Source: Chlorobiaceae bacterium (GTDB lineage Bacteria; Bacteroidota; Chlorobiia; Chlorobiales; Chlorobiaceae). Taken from it: a DNA stretch of 64,000 bases. Below are positions 46,180-53,520 of this stretch, in pieces; the stretch's first letter is position 1; each line of letters opens with the position of its first letter. The position numbers and the translations under genes are program-made. The notes beneath the pieces were generated by a model. It saw only the letters and a program-made list of their open reading frames with translations. It made no database searches and had not been told where the DNA came from. Location: positions 248,001-312,000 of the forward strand of contig JAAXWQ010000001.1 of NCBI GenBank assembly GCA_013335115.1, written 5' to 3'.

Positions 46180-47586
46180 ATGAAAGAAGACCACGGTTAC
46201 GACTATTCAATCGTGCGGGGGTTTGCGTTTTCGGCGCTATTCTGGCTTATCGTCGGACTGACGATCGGCCTGTGGATAGCGTTCGAGATGTTCAACCCGG
46301 CGCTGAACATCACACCATGGCTCAGCTTCGGCAGGCTGCGCGTCGTGCACACCAACGGCCTCGGCGTAGGGTTCGGCATGTCGGGCATCTTCGCGACGGC
46401 CTACTACATGCTCCAGCGCCTCACCCGTACACCGTTGCCCTTCCCGAAACTCGCCAAAGCCCACCTGTACGTCTTCAACCTCGCCATAGCTGCCGCCGCC
46501 GTAAGCCTCATGGCCGGCATGAACACCACCAGGGAGTATGCCGAGCTTGAATGGCCGCTCGACATCGGCGTGGTGGTCATGTGGGTGATGTTCGCCATCA
46601 ACGTGTTCGCCATCCTCGTCAGGCGCCGGGAGAAGCAGATGTACATCTCCCTCTGGTACCTGGTCGCCATGACCGTGACCGTCGCGGTGCTCTACATCGT
46701 CAACAACCTCGAGATCCCGGTTACCCTCACCAAATCCTACAGCCTCTACGCCGGCGGCAACGACGCCAATGTCGAATGGTGGTACGGGCACAATATCGTG
46801 GGATTCATCTTCACCGTCCCGGTGCTGGCGATGTTCTACTACTTCCTGCCCAAGGCCACCGGATTGCCGATCTACAGCCACCGGCTCTCGATCGTCTCCT
46901 TCTGGTCGCTGATCTTCGCCTACCTCTGGACCGGCGCGCACCACCTGATGCTGACCCCGCTGCCGGAGTGGATCCAGACCGTCGCCATCGCCTTCAGCAT
47001 CTTCCTGATCGCCCCCTCCTGGGGTTCGGTGCTCAATGGCTACTACACCCTCCAGGGCAACTGGGACCAGATGCGGTCGAACTACCTGACCAAGTTCTTC
47101 ATCATCGGCATTACGTTTTACGGCCTGCAGACGCTGCAGGGGCCGCTGCAGGGACTCAGGACGCTGAACGCATTCTTCCACTACACCGACTGGGTGGTCG
47201 GCCATGTGCACATGGGCACGATGGGATGGGTGGCCATGGTCATTTCGGCCTCCTTCTACTACATGATCCCGAAAATCAGCGACCGCAACCTCTACAGCAT
47301 CAGGCTGGCGAACATCCACTTCTGGCTCATCCTCGTCGGCCAGCTCGCCTGGACGATCACCATGTGGATCGGCGGTATCCAGCAGGGCGCCATGTGGAAG
47401 GCGACCAATCCTGACGGTTCGCTCATGTACAGCTTCCTTGATGGCCTGACCTCGCTCTATCCCTATTACCGTCTGCGCTTCGCCGCTGGTGTCGTCTACT
47501 TCATCGGCATCCTGATCTTCGCCTGGAACCTCGTCCAGACCGTCAGGCAGCCTGCAGAAGCAGAAGCGTCAACCACCAAACCTTAA
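46180..47586 (+). CDS. ccoN: cbb3-type cytochrome c oxidase subunit I
   Basis: Catalytic subunit of the high-affinity C-type haem-copper oxidase, in the inner membrane. The 468-residue protein has about 12 helices with all metal ligands: His57 (VVHTNGLG) and His344 (GHVHMG) for low-spin haem b, His204 (EWWYGHN), His254 and His255 (TGAHHLM) for CuB, and His342 for haem b3. The helix FFIIGITFYGLQTLQGP carries the Tyr that forms the His-Tyr crosslink in this class. AGGAGGAG precedes ATG 46180. ccoO follows after 15 bp. Confidence 0.97.
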   Translation: MKEDHGYDYSIVRGFAFSALFWLIVGLTIGLWIAFEMFNPALNITPWLSFGRLRVVHTNGLGVGFGMSGIFATAYYMLQRLTRTPLPFPKLAKAHLYVFNLAIAAAAVSLMAGMNTTREYAELEWPLDIGVVVMWVMFAINVFAILVRRREKQMYISLWYLVAMTVTVAVLYIVNNLEIPVTLTKSYSLYAGGNDANVEWWYGHNIVGFIFTVPVLAMFYYFLPKATGLPIYSHRLSIVSFWSLIFAYLWTGAHHLMLTPLPEWIQTVAIAFSIFLIAPSWGSVLNGYYTLQGNWDQMRSNYLTKFFIIGITFYGLQTLQGPLQGLRTLNAFFHYTDWVVGHVHMGTMGWVAMVISASFYYMIPKISDRNLYSIRLANIHFWLILVGQLAWTITMWIGGIQQGAMWKATNPDGSLMYSFLDGLTSLYPYYRLRFAAGVVYFIGILIFAWNLVQTVRQPAEAEASTTKP

Positions 47587-47601: not shown

Positions 47602-48273
47602 ATGGGGATCTATTCAAAACCGTTCGTCTTCGCCATCACGGCGACGCTGGTCATCCTTATCGGGACGGTGGCTACGGTGTTCGTACCGATGTTCATGCCG
47701 TCGACCCAGCCGGCCAGCGGTTTCGTAAAACCCTACACGGCCATCGAACAGGAGGGGCGCGACCTCTACATGCGTGAAGGCTGCAACAACTGCCACACCC
47801 AGACCGTGCGTCCGCTCAGGACCGAGGTGCTGCGCTACGGCGAGTACTCGAAAGCAGAAGAGTTCGCCTGGGACAGGCCGTTCCTCTGGGGATCCCGCCG
47901 CACGGGCCCGGACCTGAACCGCGTTGGCGGCAAGTACCCCGACTCTTGGCACTACAGGCACATGAACAAGCCGCAGGACATGTTCGCCCAGTCGAACATG
48001 CCTCCCTACGACTGGATGGCAGCCAACAAACTCGACACCTCAATCTCTTTCAAGAAGACCAAAGTCCTCGGCTACGGCTACACCGAAGAAGAGGTCAAGC
48101 AGCAGATCGCCGACTACAGGTCCAGGGTGACCGCTGCCGGCTACGACTCGAAGGATACCCGCGACCAGGTGACGCCGGCCGACCTCAGGGGGGAGCTCAC
48201 CGAAATGGACGCCATGGTCGCCTACCTGCAGAAACTTGGTCGTGACGTCAAGTCGATGGAGGCAAAGCAATGA
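47602..48273 (+). CDS. ccoO: cbb3-type cytochrome c oxidase subunit II (monohaem)
   Basis: Membrane-anchored cytochrome c subunit of 223 residues. One N-terminal helix (about 8-31, FVFAITATLVILIGTVATVFVPM) is followed by a periplasmic domain with the haem c motif CNNCH (residues 61-65), in the family context DLYMREGCNNCHTQTVRPLRTEVLRYGEYS and the later GSRRTGPDLNRVGGKY and NMPPYDWM with the Met ligand. AAAGGAG precedes the ATG. Its stop overlaps the ccoQ start. Confidence 0.97.
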   Translation: MGIYSKPFVFAITATLVILIGTVATVFVPMFMPSTQPASGFVKPYTAIEQEGRDLYMREGCNNCHTQTVRPLRTEVLRYGEYSKAEEFAWDRPFLWGSRRTGPDLNRVGGKYPDSWHYRHMNKPQDMFAQSNMPPYDWMAANKLDTSISFKKTKVLGYGYTEEEVKQQIADYRSRVTAAGYDSKDTRDQVTPADLRGELTEMDAMVAYLQKLGRDVKSMEAKQ

Positions 48274-48413
48274 ACTTCCAGTCCATCGCCTATACGATGT
48301 TCACCTTCGCCCTGGCGGCGGTAATGGCAGGCATCATCGCCTACTATTACAACCCGTCGCGAAAGAAAGAAGTCGAGGAACCGAAACACCGGATGCTCCG
48401 CGACGATGAGTGA
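48270..48413 (+). CDS. ccoQ: Small cbb3 oxidase subunit CcoQ/FixQ
   Basis: A 47-residue protein starting MNFQSIAYTMFTF, with one membrane helix (about 7-27) followed by YYYNPSRKKEVEEPKHRMLRDDE. The helix plus tyrosine-proline-basic-acidic tail is the CcoQ pattern, as is its position between ccoO and ccoP. The ATG at 48270 overlaps the ccoO stop (ATGA). CcoQ stabilises the oxidase complex, especially the CcoP interaction, in other bacteria. The terminal ...HRMLRDDE resembles the tail of CcoS here. Confidence 0.9.
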   Translation: MNFQSIAYTMFTFALAAVMAGIIAYYYNPSRKKEVEEPKHRMLRDDE

Positions 48414-48471: not shown

Positions 48472-48933
48472 ATGAATGATTCCGGAATACCGCAGGAAGG
48501 CCACAACAAGATCCCGAAGGGGTGGTTGGCGTTCTTTTTCGGAGTGATCGTCTTTCTCGTCTGGTATATCGCATCCTTCACGCCGGCGATATCGGGCTGG
48601 TCATTCTACAAAGAGTTCGAAGCCGAGATGAAGGCTGGCGAAAAGGCCGCCGCTTCGGCAACGGTCGACCCGGGCAAGTACCTGGGGAAAGCCGATGCGA
48701 TCGCCGAAGGCAAGGGCGAGTTCGGAACCACCTGCGCGGCATGTCACATGGCGGACGCCAGCGGCGGAATCGGACCGAACCTCAAGGTCGCGCTCAAGTA
48801 CGGGTCGACCCCGGACAAGCTCTTCGAATCGGTCTCCATGGGCAGGCCGAACGGCATGCCCCCGTTCCAGCAGCAGCTTGGCAACGACAAAATCCTCAAA
48901 GTCGTTTCCTTTATCGAAAGCCTGAGGAAATAA
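48472..48933 (+). CDS. ccoP: cbb3 oxidase subunit III, short monohaem form
   Basis: Membrane-bound cytochrome c subunit of only 153 residues. N terminus HNKIPKGWLAFFFGVIVFLVWY is the family CcoP helix region with its usual W-x-F-x3-FGVIF-like pattern. One c-type haem site, CAACH (residues 88-92), and a Met ligand in GRPNGMPPF (about residue 129) are present. Typical proteobacterial CcoP is about 300 residues with two CxxCH motifs; here the second haem domain is missing, and the reading frame is intact to a clean stop. I start at ATG 48472 after CAGGAGGAG; an ATG at 48406 would overlap ccoQ. Confidence 0.93.
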   Translation: MNDSGIPQEGHNKIPKGWLAFFFGVIVFLVWYIASFTPAISGWSFYKEFEAEMKAGEKAAASATVDPGKYLGKADAIAEGKGEFGTTCAACHMADASGGIGPNLKVALKYGSTPDKLFESVSMGRPNGMPPFQQQLGNDKILKVVSFIESLRK

Positions 48934-48964: not shown

Positions 48965-50080
48965 ATGAAGCAGATCGTCTGGCGACATTACCGAAGGATG
49001 GTGGAAATCCTGCAGGCCCTGCTCCTGACCGGCCTGCCCTTCCTGAAGGTCAATGGACAGAGCGCCCTGAGGTTCGACATCGGGGAACTCAACCTCTACT
49101 TTTTCGGTACCGTCATCAGGATCGGCGAGTTCTACCTGATCCTCGGGGCCACCCTGTTCCTGCTCCTCTTCATCGGCACGGTAACGGTCATCCTCGGCCG
49201 CGTCTGGTGCGGCTGGCTCTGTCCCCAGACCGTGCTGCTCGACCTCGCCGATGTCCTGGCGTCGCCCTTCGGCAAGAAGCACGCCAAAACCATGCAGAAA
49301 CTCATCCTGCTCCCCGTATCGGCCCTGGTCGCGATCACCATGATCTGGTACTTCGTGCCACCGGCAGAAGCGATACGGCAGCTAACCTCCTCCCCGCTCA
49401 TCACCAGCTTCTTCCTGGTGCTCTGGACGCTCGTCTACCTTGAGCTGGCTATGCTCGGCAGGGGCTTCTGCACCTCGATCTGCCCCTATGCCATGATGCA
49501 GAACGCGCTGTTCGACAAGGATACCCTCGTGATCGAATACGACCAGTCGCGCGACGACACCTGCATGAAATGCGACGACTGCGTGCGGGCCTGCCCGGTG
49601 GGCATCGACATCAAGGAGGGGCTCAGCAACCGTTGCATCGCCTGCGCCGAATGCATCGACGCCTGCTGGCCGAAAAGCAGGAAGCGAAACCTGCCGCCTT
49701 TCCCGCACTACAAGGGAAAGGTCATGCGTCCCAAGTCCTGGCTGCTGGGAGGCGTCACGCTCGCCTCGGCGCTGGTACTGGCACTCTTCATCGCCGGCCG
49801 GCCAACGGTCGACTTCATGGTCAACCGGGTACAGGAACCCCTTCCTGCCGGCCTGAACCGGTACGCCTACTCGATCTACAACAACAGCCCCCGGCCGCTC
49901 GAACTCGAACTTTCCGCGCCAGACGGCGCCACGGTGATCGGCGAAAGCAGGATCGTACTCAAGCCCTTCGGCGTCGTCCGGGGCAAACTGCTGCTCAAGG
50001 CAAGCCCCGGCCGTGACAAGGTCACGCTGAACCTCAGGGGCAACGGCGTTTCGTTAACCAGGGAAACGGGATTCCTATGA
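48965..50080 (+). CDS. ccoG: Cytochrome oxidase accessory iron-sulfur protein CcoG/RdxA
   Basis: A 371-residue polyferredoxin-like membrane protein that reduces copper during cbb3 oxidase maturation. It has several membrane helices, RVWCGWLCPQTVLLDL and RGFCTSICPYAMMQNALFDKD with conserved Cys, and two [4Fe-4S] motifs, CMKCDDCVRACPVGIDI and CIACAECIDACWP. The C-terminal periplasmic part (YAYSIYNNSPRPLELELSAPDG) is the Ig-like FixG domain. Its stop codon overlaps the ccoH start (ATGA). Confidence 0.96.
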   Translation: MKQIVWRHYRRMVEILQALLLTGLPFLKVNGQSALRFDIGELNLYFFGTVIRIGEFYLILGATLFLLLFIGTVTVILGRVWCGWLCPQTVLLDLADVLASPFGKKHAKTMQKLILLPVSALVAITMIWYFVPPAEAIRQLTSSPLITSFFLVLWTLVYLELAMLGRGFCTSICPYAMMQNALFDKDTLVIEYDQSRDDTCMKCDDCVRACPVGIDIKEGLSNRCIACAECIDACWPKSRKRNLPPFPHYKGKVMRPKSWLLGGVTLASALVLALFIAGRPTVDFMVNRVQEPLPAGLNRYAYSIYNNSPRPLELELSAPDGATVIGESRIVLKPFGVVRGKLLLKASPGRDKVTLNLRGNGVSLTRETGFL

Positions 50081-50514
50081 AACCTTTCATCGCTGCCATA
50101 TTCGCACTCTTCCTTATCGCCATGGGCTGCGGCATCTTCTTCGCCTACCGCAACGCCGAAGGACTCGTGGAGGCGAACTACTACGAACGGGGCAGCAGCT
50201 GGTTCCAGGCAAAGGCCGAAGAACGCCGGATGGGGCTCGAAGTCGCCGGGCCCGCCCTCCTGGCCACAGGGAAGAACGAGGTGAAATTCGTCCTGACCGA
50301 GCACGGACGTCCCCTCCGCGACGCCGGGGTGAAGCTTTTCGTCGGCAACGTCTCGTCGAAGGCACAAGACTTCTCGAGCCCCATGCGGGAAACTGCCCCC
50401 GGAATCTACGAAGCGAGCGCCGTAGTTCCAGCCAAAGGCAAATGGCTGATGAGGATGAACCTCGACGCCGGGAAACTCAAAACCAGCAGGTCATGGTTCT
50501 TCGACGTCAGGTAA
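50077..50514 (+). CDS. ccoH: FixH/CcoH-family protein
   Basis: A 145-residue protein with one N-terminal membrane helix (IAAIFALFLIAMGCGIFFAYRNAEGLVEANYYERG) and a periplasmic beta domain, the FixH layout. The sequence after the helix, VEANYYERGSSWFQAKAEERRMGL, is highly typical. CcoH is needed for stable assembly of CcoNOP. It overlaps ccoG by 4 bases and the next small gene by 22 bases. Confidence 0.92.
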   Translation: MKPFIAAIFALFLIAMGCGIFFAYRNAEGLVEANYYERGSSWFQAKAEERRMGLEVAGPALLATGKNEVKFVLTEHGRPLRDAGVKLFVGNVSSKAQDFSSPMRETAPGIYEASAVVPAKGKWLMRMNLDAGKLKTSRSWFFDVR

Positions 50515-50924
50515 GCCGCGCCGCCCTGCTCAGCTTCGCCGCGTTCGCCATGGCGGCGGCAACGTCGCGGGCCGACTCCCCGGCCGACAGCAATGCCATC
50601 CATGCGGGCCCGTGCACCAAGCGGGCGGATGGCCGGCTGGTGACGCTGGAGATCGACCCGAAACCGGTCAGGCACATGCGGGAACTGACCTTCAGGGTCA
50701 CTATCGAGCCATGCGACGGCATGCCGCAGCACCTGCTGCTCGACCTTGCCATGCCGGGCATGGTGATGGGCAGGAACCAGGTCAGGCTGTCGAGGAGGAA
50801 CGGCTGCACCTGGGAAGGCAGGGGCCTCATCGTCCGCTGCATGAGCGGCCGGACGCTCTGGCGGGCAACACTCCTCTCCCCCGGACCGGGCAACCCCGTA
50901 TTCACCTTCGATGTCCGCGACTAA
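50493..50924 (+). CDS. Second FixH/YtkA-like exported protein
   Basis: A 143-residue protein with a signal peptide (VLRRQVSRAALLSFAAFAMAAATSRA, cleavage about residue 27). The mature part has EIDPKPVRHMRELTFRVTIEPC, DLAMPGMVMGRNQVRL and TLWRATLLSPGPGNPVFTFDVRD, in which the MPGMxMGxN element resembles YtkA-like/FixH domains. Met and Cys residues (Cys near 50, 82, 115, 126) could bind copper, but that is inference. It starts 22 bp inside ccoH and ends inside the likely N terminus of ccoI, so it belongs to the oxidase operon. I do not know a named function. Confidence 0.75.
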   Translation: MVLRRQVSRAALLSFAAFAMAAATSRADSPADSNAIHAGPCTKRADGRLVTLEIDPKPVRHMRELTFRVTIEPCDGMPQHLLLDLAMPGMVMGRNQVRLSRRNGCTWEGRGLIVRCMSGRTLWRATLLSPGPGNPVFTFDVRD

Positions 50925-50943
50925 ACGGCAAGGACAGGCCGCC

Positions 50944-53334
50944 ATGCGCTGCGACCACTGCCTCCAGGAGCTCTCGGGCTCCGCAACCGTCGCGGTGACA
51001 ATCGGCGGGCAGGAGCGGCGATTCTGCTGCCATGGTTGCCTGGGGGTCTATGAGCTGATCCACCGCCAGTCGCTCGACGCCTTTTACTCCCGGCGGTGTG
51101 ACTGGCAGCCGGGACGGCCGGCCTTCGCGGCAGTCGACGCCAGGGACTTCGCCGCAGATGTCGTGAGCGCCGGCGGAACCAGCCGGATTGATGTCGTGCT
51201 CTCCGGGATCCGTTGCGCCTCCTGCGTCTGGCTCATCGAAAAGGTGCTCAGCCGGCTCGAAGGCGTGGTATCGGCAAGGGTGAATTACGCGACCCGCCGG
51301 GCTTCCATCGAATGGCGGCCCGATTCGCTCCAACTGGAGGCAATCCTCAGGACGGTGGCGGGTCTCGGCTACATCCCGAGGCCCGCCAGCCACTCGGCAT
51401 CGATGGACGCGTTCGCTGAAGAGAAGCGGGACCTCTTGCTGCGGTTCGGAACGGCCGGGTTCTTCTCGATGCAGCTGATGCTGGTCAGCGCCGCCCTCTA
51501 CGCCGGTTTCTTCCAGGGCATCGAATCGACCTACCGCCTTGCATTCCAGCTCATCTCCTGGGCGCTGGCGACCCCGGTCGTCCTCTACTCGGCCACCCCA
51601 TTCATCTCGAACGCCCTGCGCTCGATCAGGAACCGCAACCTCAACATGGACGTCCTGGTGGCGATCGGATCCCTCGCCGCCTACCTTTACAGCATCGCCA
51701 TGGTCTTCACCGGGGGCGAGGTCTTCTTCGACACTTCGGCCATGATCGTCACCTTCATCCTCCTCGGGCGCTTCCTGGAGGCCGGCTCCAGGCTCAAGGC
51801 GGGGAGCGCACTTGAGGCCCTGGCCGAACTCCAGCCGAAGGAGGCGATGCTGGTCGGTGATTCCGGCAAGGCCGCGCTCGTTCCGCTGGAACGGATCGTC
51901 AGCGGTGAACTGATCGAGGTGCTGCCCGGATCGAGGGTGCCGCTCGACGGCACGGTCGTCGAAGGCACGGCCGACGTCGACGAGTCGATGCTGACCGGCG
52001 AGTCCGCACCCGTGCCGAAGGGCGAAGGCAGCGAACTCTATGCCGGCACCTGCGCGGTCACCGGCCGGCTGACGATACGGGTCACCGGGAACGCGAAGGA
52101 GACGCTGCTCTCGAGGATCATCAGGACGGTCGAGGAGGCCCAGGCGCGCAAAGCCCCGATCCAGGGGCTGGCCGACCGGGTTTCGGGCTGGTTCGTACCG
52201 GTCGTCCTGCTCCTGGCTTCGGCCACCTTCGCCTGGTGGAAGCTCTCGGGAGCCTCAGCCGTGACGTCGCTCATGACCGCCGTGTCGGTGCTGGTCATCG
52301 CCTGCCCCTGCGCGCTCGGCCTGGCCACGCCGCTCGCCATCCTGGTCGGGACCACGGCCGTCGGCAGGAAAGGCATTCTCGTCAAGGGTGGCGACATTTT
52401 CGAATCGGTTTCGAAAACCACCGTCGTGGCGCTCGACAAGACCGGGACCATCACCCGGGGGAAGCCCTCGGTCGTGGACACCTTCGACTTCGGCGTCGAG
52501 GAGCGGTTCATGCAGTGCTGCGCCTCCCTTGAGCAGTGGTCCGGACACCCGGCAGGCCATGCGATCACCTCGGCCTGGAACGAGGAACTCCTGCCTGTTG
52601 AAAGCTTCCGTGCCCTGCCGGGCCAGGGGGTCGCCGGGACGATCGGCGGCCAGGCCTGGCTTGCCGGCTCGCCATTGCTCCTCGAAGGCAACGGCATCGC
52701 CATCGATCCGTCATGCCGCCAAGAGGCGGCGCGGCTCGAACGGGAGGGGAAGAGCACGGTGTTCGTCGCCTGCGGCGGGCGCGTCGCCGGCCTGTTCGGC
52801 CTGATCGACGACCTTCGGGAGGATGCCCCCGGCATGGTCGCCGCACTCAAGGCGCAGGGGCTCCGCCCGATCATCCTCACGGGGGACAACGAAGGGGTAG
52901 CCAGGTACGTCGCCGAGAAATGCGGCATCGAAGAGGTCCGTTCCGAGCTGAGCCCCATCGGCAAGGCCGAGGCGGTAAGGGAGCTGAAAGCTGCAGGCGA
53001 GACCGTGCTGATGACCGGCGACGGTATCAACGACGCTCCGGCGCTCACGGAGGCCGACACCGGGGTCACCTTCGGCACGGCGACCGGCATCGCCATCGAA
53101 AGCGCCGGCGTCACCATCCTGAACGACGACCTCAGGCTGCTCGGCGAGCTCTTCTCGGGCTCGAGGAAAAGCTTCTCGGTCATCCGCCAGAACCTCGCCT
53201 GGGCCTTCGGCTACAACCTGCTTGCCGTACCGCTCGCCGTCGCCGGGCTGCTGCACCCGATCGTCTCCGCCCTGCTCATGGCTTCGAGCTCCCTGGTGGT
53301 CGTGGGCAACTCGCTTAGGCTGAAAAAAATCTGA
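50944..53334 (+). CDS. ccoI: Copper-translocating P-type ATPase CcoI
   Basis: P1B-type ATPase supplying copper to cbb3 oxidase. About 796 residues. N-terminal metal-binding Cys motifs CDHC and CCHGCLGVY are followed by a heavy-metal domain with GIRCASC. The core has the transmembrane CPC (VIACPCALGLATP), the actuator TGES, the phosphorylated Asp in DKTGTIT, TGDN and MTGDGINDAPALTEADTGV. The AAGGAC run favours ATG 50944 (MRCDHC); ATG 50911 would add 11 residues and overlap the gene before. ccoS follows after 9 bp. Confidence 0.95.
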   Translation: MRCDHCLQELSGSATVAVTIGGQERRFCCHGCLGVYELIHRQSLDAFYSRRCDWQPGRPAFAAVDARDFAADVVSAGGTSRIDVVLSGIRCASCVWLIEKVLSRLEGVVSARVNYATRRASIEWRPDSLQLEAILRTVAGLGYIPRPASHSASMDAFAEEKRDLLLRFGTAGFFSMQLMLVSAALYAGFFQGIESTYRLAFQLISWALATPVVLYSATPFISNALRSIRNRNLNMDVLVAIGSLAAYLYSIAMVFTGGEVFFDTSAMIVTFILLGRFLEAGSRLKAGSALEALAELQPKEAMLVGDSGKAALVPLERIVSGELIEVLPGSRVPLDGTVVEGTADVDESMLTGESAPVPKGEGSELYAGTCAVTGRLTIRVTGNAKETLLSRIIRTVEEAQARKAPIQGLADRVSGWFVPVVLLLASATFAWWKLSGASAVTSLMTAVSVLVIACPCALGLATPLAILVGTTAVGRKGILVKGGDIFESVSKTTVVALDKTGTITRGKPSVVDTFDFGVEERFMQCCASLEQWSGHPAGHAITSAWNEELLPVESFRALPGQGVAGTIGGQAWLAGSPLLLEGNGIAIDPSCRQEAARLEREGKSTVFVACGGRVAGLFGLIDDLREDAPGMVAALKAQGLRPIILTGDNEGVARYVAEKCGIEEVRSELSPIGKAEAVRELKAAGETVLMTGDGINDAPALTEADTGVTFGTATGIAIESAGVTILNDDLRLLGELFSGSRKSFSVIRQNLAWAFGYNLLAVPLAVAGLLHPIVSALLMASSSLVVVGNSLRLKKI

Positions 53335-53343
53335 ACCACACGT

Positions 53344-53520
53344 ATGGCAAGCACCTTTTTCCTCATCGCCATCGGCTTCATCTTCGGGCTTGCCGGCTGG
53401 GCACTGTTCCTCTGGGCGGTACGGAGCGGGCAGTTCGACGATGCCGAAGCGCCAAAATACCGCATGCTCGACGACGACGACGAAACGCCCTCGACAAAAA
53501 CGAAGGACCATGGGCACTGA
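53344..53520 (+). CDS. ccoS: cbb3 oxidase maturation protein CcoS
   Basis: A 58-residue protein starting MASTFFLIAIGFIFGLAGW, with one membrane helix (about 5-26), then AVRSGQFDDAEAPKYRMLDDDDE, the CcoS signature W-x3-SGQFDD-x4-RxLxDDD. It is required for cofactor insertion into the oxidase in other bacteria. It follows ccoI directly and overlaps the next gene by 11 bases. Confidence 0.93.
   Translation: MASTFFLIAIGFIFGLAGWALFLWAVRSGQFDDAEAPKYRMLDDDDETPSTKTKDHGH

Follow-up and report, generated by a model that had tools for sequence, protein, structure and literature searches.

A cbb3 oxidase operon with a monohaem CcoP in a Chlorobiaceae genome, and a probable loss of the outer CcoO haem domain in green sulfur bacteria

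RESULTS

The cbb3 operon and its ccoP gene

The stretch of DNA that we analyzed as a whole (64 kb, here called the window) lies on contig C25 of a 2.1-Mb Chlorobiaceae genome (G000) and carries a cbb3 oxidase operon in the order ccoN-O-Q-P-G-H-I-S, with the following features:

46180..47586, + strand: ccoN, cbb3 catalytic subunit, 468 aa (COX1, 338 bits)
47602..48273, + strand: ccoO, 223 aa, one haem c motif CNNCH (FixO, 250 bits)
48270..48413, + strand: ccoQ, 47 aa (open reading frame with a homologue in operons of green sulfur bacteria, GSB)
48472..48933, + strand: ccoP, 153 aa, FixP_N anchor and one cytochrome c domain
48965..50080, + strand: presumed ccoG, ferredoxin-type assembly protein, 371 aa (open reading frame adjoining ccoP in GSB loci, conserved)
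50077..50514, + strand: presumed ccoH, FixH family, 145 aa (open reading frame conserved in GSB loci)
50442..50924, + strand: open reading frame of 160 aa between ccoH and ccoI
50911..53334, + strand: presumed ccoI, copper P-type ATPase, 807 aa (open reading frame conserved in GSB loci)
53344..53520, + strand: presumed ccoS, 58 aa (open reading frame)

We take the names ccoG and ccoS from operon order. The catalytic subunit CcoN together with a FixO-type CcoO places the enzyme among the C-family (cbb3) oxidases; the CcoO passes the cut-off of its model (TIGR00781, 204 bits), the ccoN model TIGR00780 gives CcoN 523 bits, under its cut-off of 583, and a profile search of the whole genome found one COX1 match, the CcoN of the window. 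The ccoQ frame overlaps ccoO by 4 nt. A Pfam search with the 160-aa frame found no match; it may correspond to the "remote homolog of CcoH" mentioned for GSB operons in passages of PMC10158934.

The first-pass annotation had described ccoP as an intact frame of 153 residues with one CxxCH and a normal N-terminal helix, and all of this is borne out by translation, by Pfam and by the 31 nt between the ccoP stop and the ccoG start at 48965. The single motif is CAACH at residues 88-92, FixP_N (PF14715) matches residues 8-36 (2e-6; 27.8 bits against a cut-off of 24.9), and one Cytochrome_CBB3 domain (PF13442) spans residues 76-148 (1.7e-11), both matches exceeding the gathering score. Cys88, Cys91, His92 and Met129 are invariant across an alignment of 32 sequences, and the cytochrome c domain is of the His/Met type. 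A GGAGG sits immediately 5' of the ATG at 48472; a longer frame of 175 aa could begin at an ATG at 48406, inside ccoQ, and relatives' CcoPs are mostly 152-155 aa. Because only 31 nt separate ccoP from ccoG, no second haem domain has been cut off or hidden by a frameshift, and a sequencing error that masks such a domain is ruled out by that gap together with the like lengths in other Chlorobiaceae.

The predicted structure of the protein (mean pLDDT 80) has an anchor helix at residues 16-36 and a class-I cytochrome c fold, and its best fold match is the CcoP of 3mk7 (3mk7_C; Z 15.4, rmsd 1.4, 88 residues). The FixP_N anchor, the Cytochrome_CBB3 domain with its CxxCH and Met ligand, and the gene order ccoN-O-Q-P identify it as a CcoP/FixP protein, while the dihaem CcoP equivalog TIGR00782 gives this one-CxxCH protein 49.0 bits against a curated 179.95.

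Monohaem CcoP across the Chlorobiaceae

Loci gathered by CcoO numbered 59 in the Chlorobiaceae; four end before ccoP (L018, L040, L051, L066) and one has a broken ccoP frame (L046), and all of the intact CcoPs (54/54) have one CxxCH. A two-motif count for the CcoO of L056 is an artefact of an out-of-frame 5' extension. Across the class Chlorobia, 68 of 98 genomes encode a CcoP homologue, and none of these reading frames is long enough to encode a dihaem protein; this spread, with the four invariant positions, argues that the short CcoP is no chance product. The genome that holds the window has a single CcoP homologue and no CcoP paralogue.

A second monohaem CcoP, encoded away from the ccoP position of the operon, is present in two other Chlorobiaceae genomes (G063, L145 10571-11047; and G296:C209:9387-9803) and is 45-49% identical to the window CcoP; the copy in G063 adjoins genes that we take from their appearance to be cydA- and cydB-like. 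Two Chlorobiaceae loci carry a second, divergent ccoN directly upstream of ccoNOQP (L003 2789-4303 and L013 2749-4170; 712 and 778 bits against the window CcoN), and orphan catalytic subunits of this kind are known in pseudomonads. Relatives of the Chlorobiaceae at the order level (G079, G233, G316, G317; loci L218-L221) encode a divergent FixO-like protein (E about 1e-28, frames of 195-197 aa).

A GSB CcoP of half length and one domain was reported in 2023 for Prosthecochloris (PMC10158934), and passages of that report make the one-haem CcoP of GSB already known.

Placement of c haems in other cbb3 oxidases

Of 36 distinct genomes sampled in the Bacteroidota, 35 have a single haem on each of CcoO and CcoP, usually in loci with a CcoN-CcoO fusion, and in the remaining one a CcoP was not found; this sample is non-random, consisting of the best 30 of 217 FixO-matching genomes, five hand-picked lower scorers and one plasmid, with duplicates counted once (L137 = L102, L138 = L107). 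The same one-and-one arrangement, unfused, occurs in 7/7 loci of one Nitrospirota set (L194-L200), and CcoP is monohaem in most Desulfuromonadales and Nitrospira-type loci. A dihaem CcoP was found at five loci only, four on alphaproteobacterial plasmids and one in a Desulfobacterota genome (L147, L149, L150, L151, L153). Low-scoring FixO matches (L159-L181, L203-L211) stayed outside the scoring of architectures, three-motif fusions (L201, L202) entered the tally only, and a Halomonas locus whose ccoP is split into two one-haem open reading frames (L148) appears as one-and-one in the automatic tally and was excluded from the trees.

Other lineages carry a further haem on CcoO. Desulfuromonadales, L055, L063 and L193 combine a monohaem CcoP with a CcoO of about 285-335 aa that has a second, C-terminal haem c domain, and a two-haem CcoO is paired with a haemless CcoP stub at 13 Nitrospirota loci, after removal of one duplicate (L058, L060-L062, L183, L185-L192), and likewise in the Desulfobacterota genome L156. 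In these stubs the anchor part alone is kept. Predicted haem arrangements in cbb3 oxidases would include two haems on CcoO combined with a monohaem CcoP, two on CcoO combined with a haemless stub, and one on each subunit.

The window CcoP had been called half of the usual dihaem protein, which holds against the proteobacterial textbook enzyme but not against its own relatives, which are monohaem. As these loci read, the short CcoP was not shortened within its own branch, and monohaem is the common state there and in the sampled Bacteroidota; the protein belongs to a real cbb3 oxidase, whose monohaem type is the usual one in its branch.

Loss or gain of a CcoO haem domain

The CcoO of GSB stops where the linker to the second haem domain starts in its relatives. 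A tree of CcoN and the CcoO core (65 rows) places GSB as sister to L055, whose CcoO has 324 aa and two motifs (support 100), with L193, also a two-motif CcoO, joining next (93); a careful tree of 47 rows gives 100/99 and 93/91 for the same nodes. A CcoO insert of about 28-30 residues is common to GSB and L055 and absent from L193 and L063. Inheritance of the GSB oxidase with the main Bacteroidota clade was rejected (AU test, p 4e-45), as was its grouping with the L068 type (AU test, p 7e-4).

The CcoO state needs three changes on the careful tree, in a history that by our reading includes loss of the CcoO haem domain in GSB, and four if each relative gained the domain separately; this margin of one step depends mainly on L055, a metagenome-assembled contig, and L193, both flagged as long branches. 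The haem absent relative to the nearest relatives is the C-terminal CcoO haem, and most simply GSB would have lost that domain. The first-pass annotation had placed the missing haem in CcoP; the extra haem of the nearest relatives is at the CcoO C-terminus. Its count of one haem c fewer stands against the textbook enzyme, given one CcoP homologue and one COX1 match in the genome, but not as a CcoP loss in the lineage.

With a probability of about 0.7, we favor a monohaem-CcoP oxidase that came from outside the main Bacteroidota line: the Chlorobiaceae would have taken it from a relative whose oxidase had three c haems (a pair on CcoO, a single one on CcoP), after which the C-terminal haem domain of CcoO was lost and CcoP kept its single domain, leaving two c haems per oxidase, one on each subunit. 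The strongest competitor, in our view unlikely though far from negligible, is that the C-terminal domain was gained several times and that GSB keep an ancestral two-haem state with no loss. A tree of 56 domains (84 columns) gives the CcoO C-terminal domains no single origin (four changes), so repeated fusion is possible, and a single clade of all two-haem CcoOs is rejected (AU p 1.3e-12); but repeated gain costs one step more than a GSB loss on the careful tree, and the AU result fits both histories, since a single clade is unexpected if GSB arose within it.

Neither loss of the CcoO haem nor the haemless CcoP stub is described in the open-licence literature searched, a scope outside which the account of cbb3 evolution by Ducluzeau et al. 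(2008) falls. Drawing on the 65 rows, we suggest as a new angle, with no claim to first description, that it is CcoO which lacks a haem and that the position of the outer haem varies among cbb3 lineages.

Electron path and candidate donors

In Rhodobacter capsulatus, passages of PMC7876108 trace electrons from cytochrome c2 through haems cp2, cp1, co and b to b3-CuB, and propose that the anchored cytochrome cy enters at cp1. The GSB path would run from the donor to the CcoP haem, the CcoO haem, haem b and haem b3/CuB, with the CcoP haem as sole outer relay. Because CcoP has a single haem, the donor must directly reduce that haem or CcoO. The genome encodes a small cytochrome c of 110 aa with a signal-like N-terminus and three lipoprotein-like monohaem cytochromes c (141 aa at L133, 155 aa at L134, 149 aa at L132), their lipoprotein status being our reading of the N-termini. 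The first-pass annotation had offered a small soluble cytochrome c of sulfide oxidation as a possible donor; the small cytochromes of this genome are candidates only, both for feeding the oxidase and for a part in sulfide oxidation.

Lipoprotein-like cytochromes of this kind might dock permanently on the oxidase and restore a third haem. We consider it improbable that a separate anchored cytochrome c associates with the complex and provides the outer haem in trans: the lipoprotein-like candidates and the second CcoPs of G063 and G296 are what such a mechanism would draw on, but the candidate genes show no linkage to the cbb3 operon, the genome has no CcoP paralogue of its own, and the 64-kb window holds no other CxxCH open reading frame of at least 70 aa. 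A second haem c domain encoded elsewhere, which the first-pass annotation had named as a finding that would overturn its view, has a counterpart in those two genomes and none in this one.

Three Rieske-domain matches occur in the genome, one at C25:393712. At L132 (G000:C21, 1624-7369), Rieske and 4Fe-4S ferredoxin genes lie with a cytochrome b split into N and C parts, an octahaem cytochrome c (873 aa, with FixO-like and Cytochrome_CBB3 stretches) and the lipoprotein-like monohaem cytochrome; by its gene content, this cluster is a predicted alternative Rieske/cytochrome b complex. The octahaem cytochrome is present in 35 of 98 class-Chlorobia genomes. Among good-quality Chlorobiaceae it occurs in 25/52 with ccoP versus 1/13 without (Fisher p 0.01, kinship ignored), and across all 86 genomes in 31/68 versus 3/18 (p 0.03, kinship ignored). 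The only good-quality genome that departs from this pattern, G024, does contain part of a ccoO, at the edge of a contig; outside the Chlorobiaceae, G087 has the octahaem protein and is without ccoP. This co-occurrence ties the octahaem/Rieske cluster weakly to the oxidase. A broader reading, which we hold as tentative and would put short of an even chance, is that cbb3 oxidases shift or drop their outer haem c and that GSB have a minimal two-haem relay, with the CcoO haem lost from a three-c-haem form, electrons entering straight at CcoP, and possibly with anchored donors fed by the Rieske/octahaem cluster.

Affinity of the single CcoP haem domain

Profiles of domain 2 of dihaem CcoP outscore those of domain 1 for 8/8 GSB and for 31/32 single-haem domains, and the CcoP fold alignment reaches the chain end of 3mk7_C. 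Mean identity of the single domain is 31% to domain 2 versus 28% to domain 1, which may have diverged faster, and in its attachment to the anchor the single domain resembles domain 1. The two dihaem CcoP domains cluster together (94/83) in the 56-domain tree, midpoint rooted.

Shortening of a dihaem CcoP ancestor within the Chlorobiaceae, as an adaptation to another electron donor, is very unlikely: the short length of CcoP and its one haem against two in proteobacterial CcoP prompt the idea, and the domain 2 scores and fold match would leave room for domain 1 having been deleted long ago, at the base of the whole monohaem group, but near relatives are all monohaem, and distant ones outside the dihaem group mostly so, which argues against a CcoP loss on the GSB branch, and the grouping of the two dihaem domains fits a tandem duplication in the dihaem lineage.

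DISCUSSION

The GSB lineage should not be measured against the dihaem CcoP of the textbook enzyme. Oxidases that carry three or two c haems in different positions form a natural series in which the function of the outer cbb3 haem could be tested, and these arrangements bear on the route by which electrons may reach oxygen in phototrophs that are commonly described as strict anaerobes. Our reading of the CcoO haem deserves denser sampling.

Prosthecochloris is among the closest known systems: passages of PMC10158934 give GSB a ccoNOQP-GHIS operon that also includes a tauE-like gene and an additional gene resembling CcoH, and a CcoP with one Cytochrome_CBB3 domain and half the length of the PAO1 protein, at 138 aa compared with 153 aa in the window. 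CcoPs of P. stutzeri, P. aeruginosa and R. capsulatus (3mk7, 8smr, 6xkw) have the FixP_N anchor and class-I cytochrome c fold found here, but with two haem c domains rather than one. PRK14486 (NCBIfam, bifunctional cbb3 subunit II/cytochrome c) describes a CcoO fused to a C-terminal cytochrome c; the window CcoO scores 276.4 bits against its curated 447 and the CcoP haem domain matches its C-terminus (49.5 bits), whereas in the window these are separate genes, with a CcoO that has one CxxCH and no extension. Finally, the cbb3 oxidases of Desulfuromonadales, of the Myxococcota-like L055 and of Nitrospirota share a CcoN and CcoO clade with GSB but differ in having two haems on CcoO, and, in one Nitrospirota group, a haemless CcoP stub.
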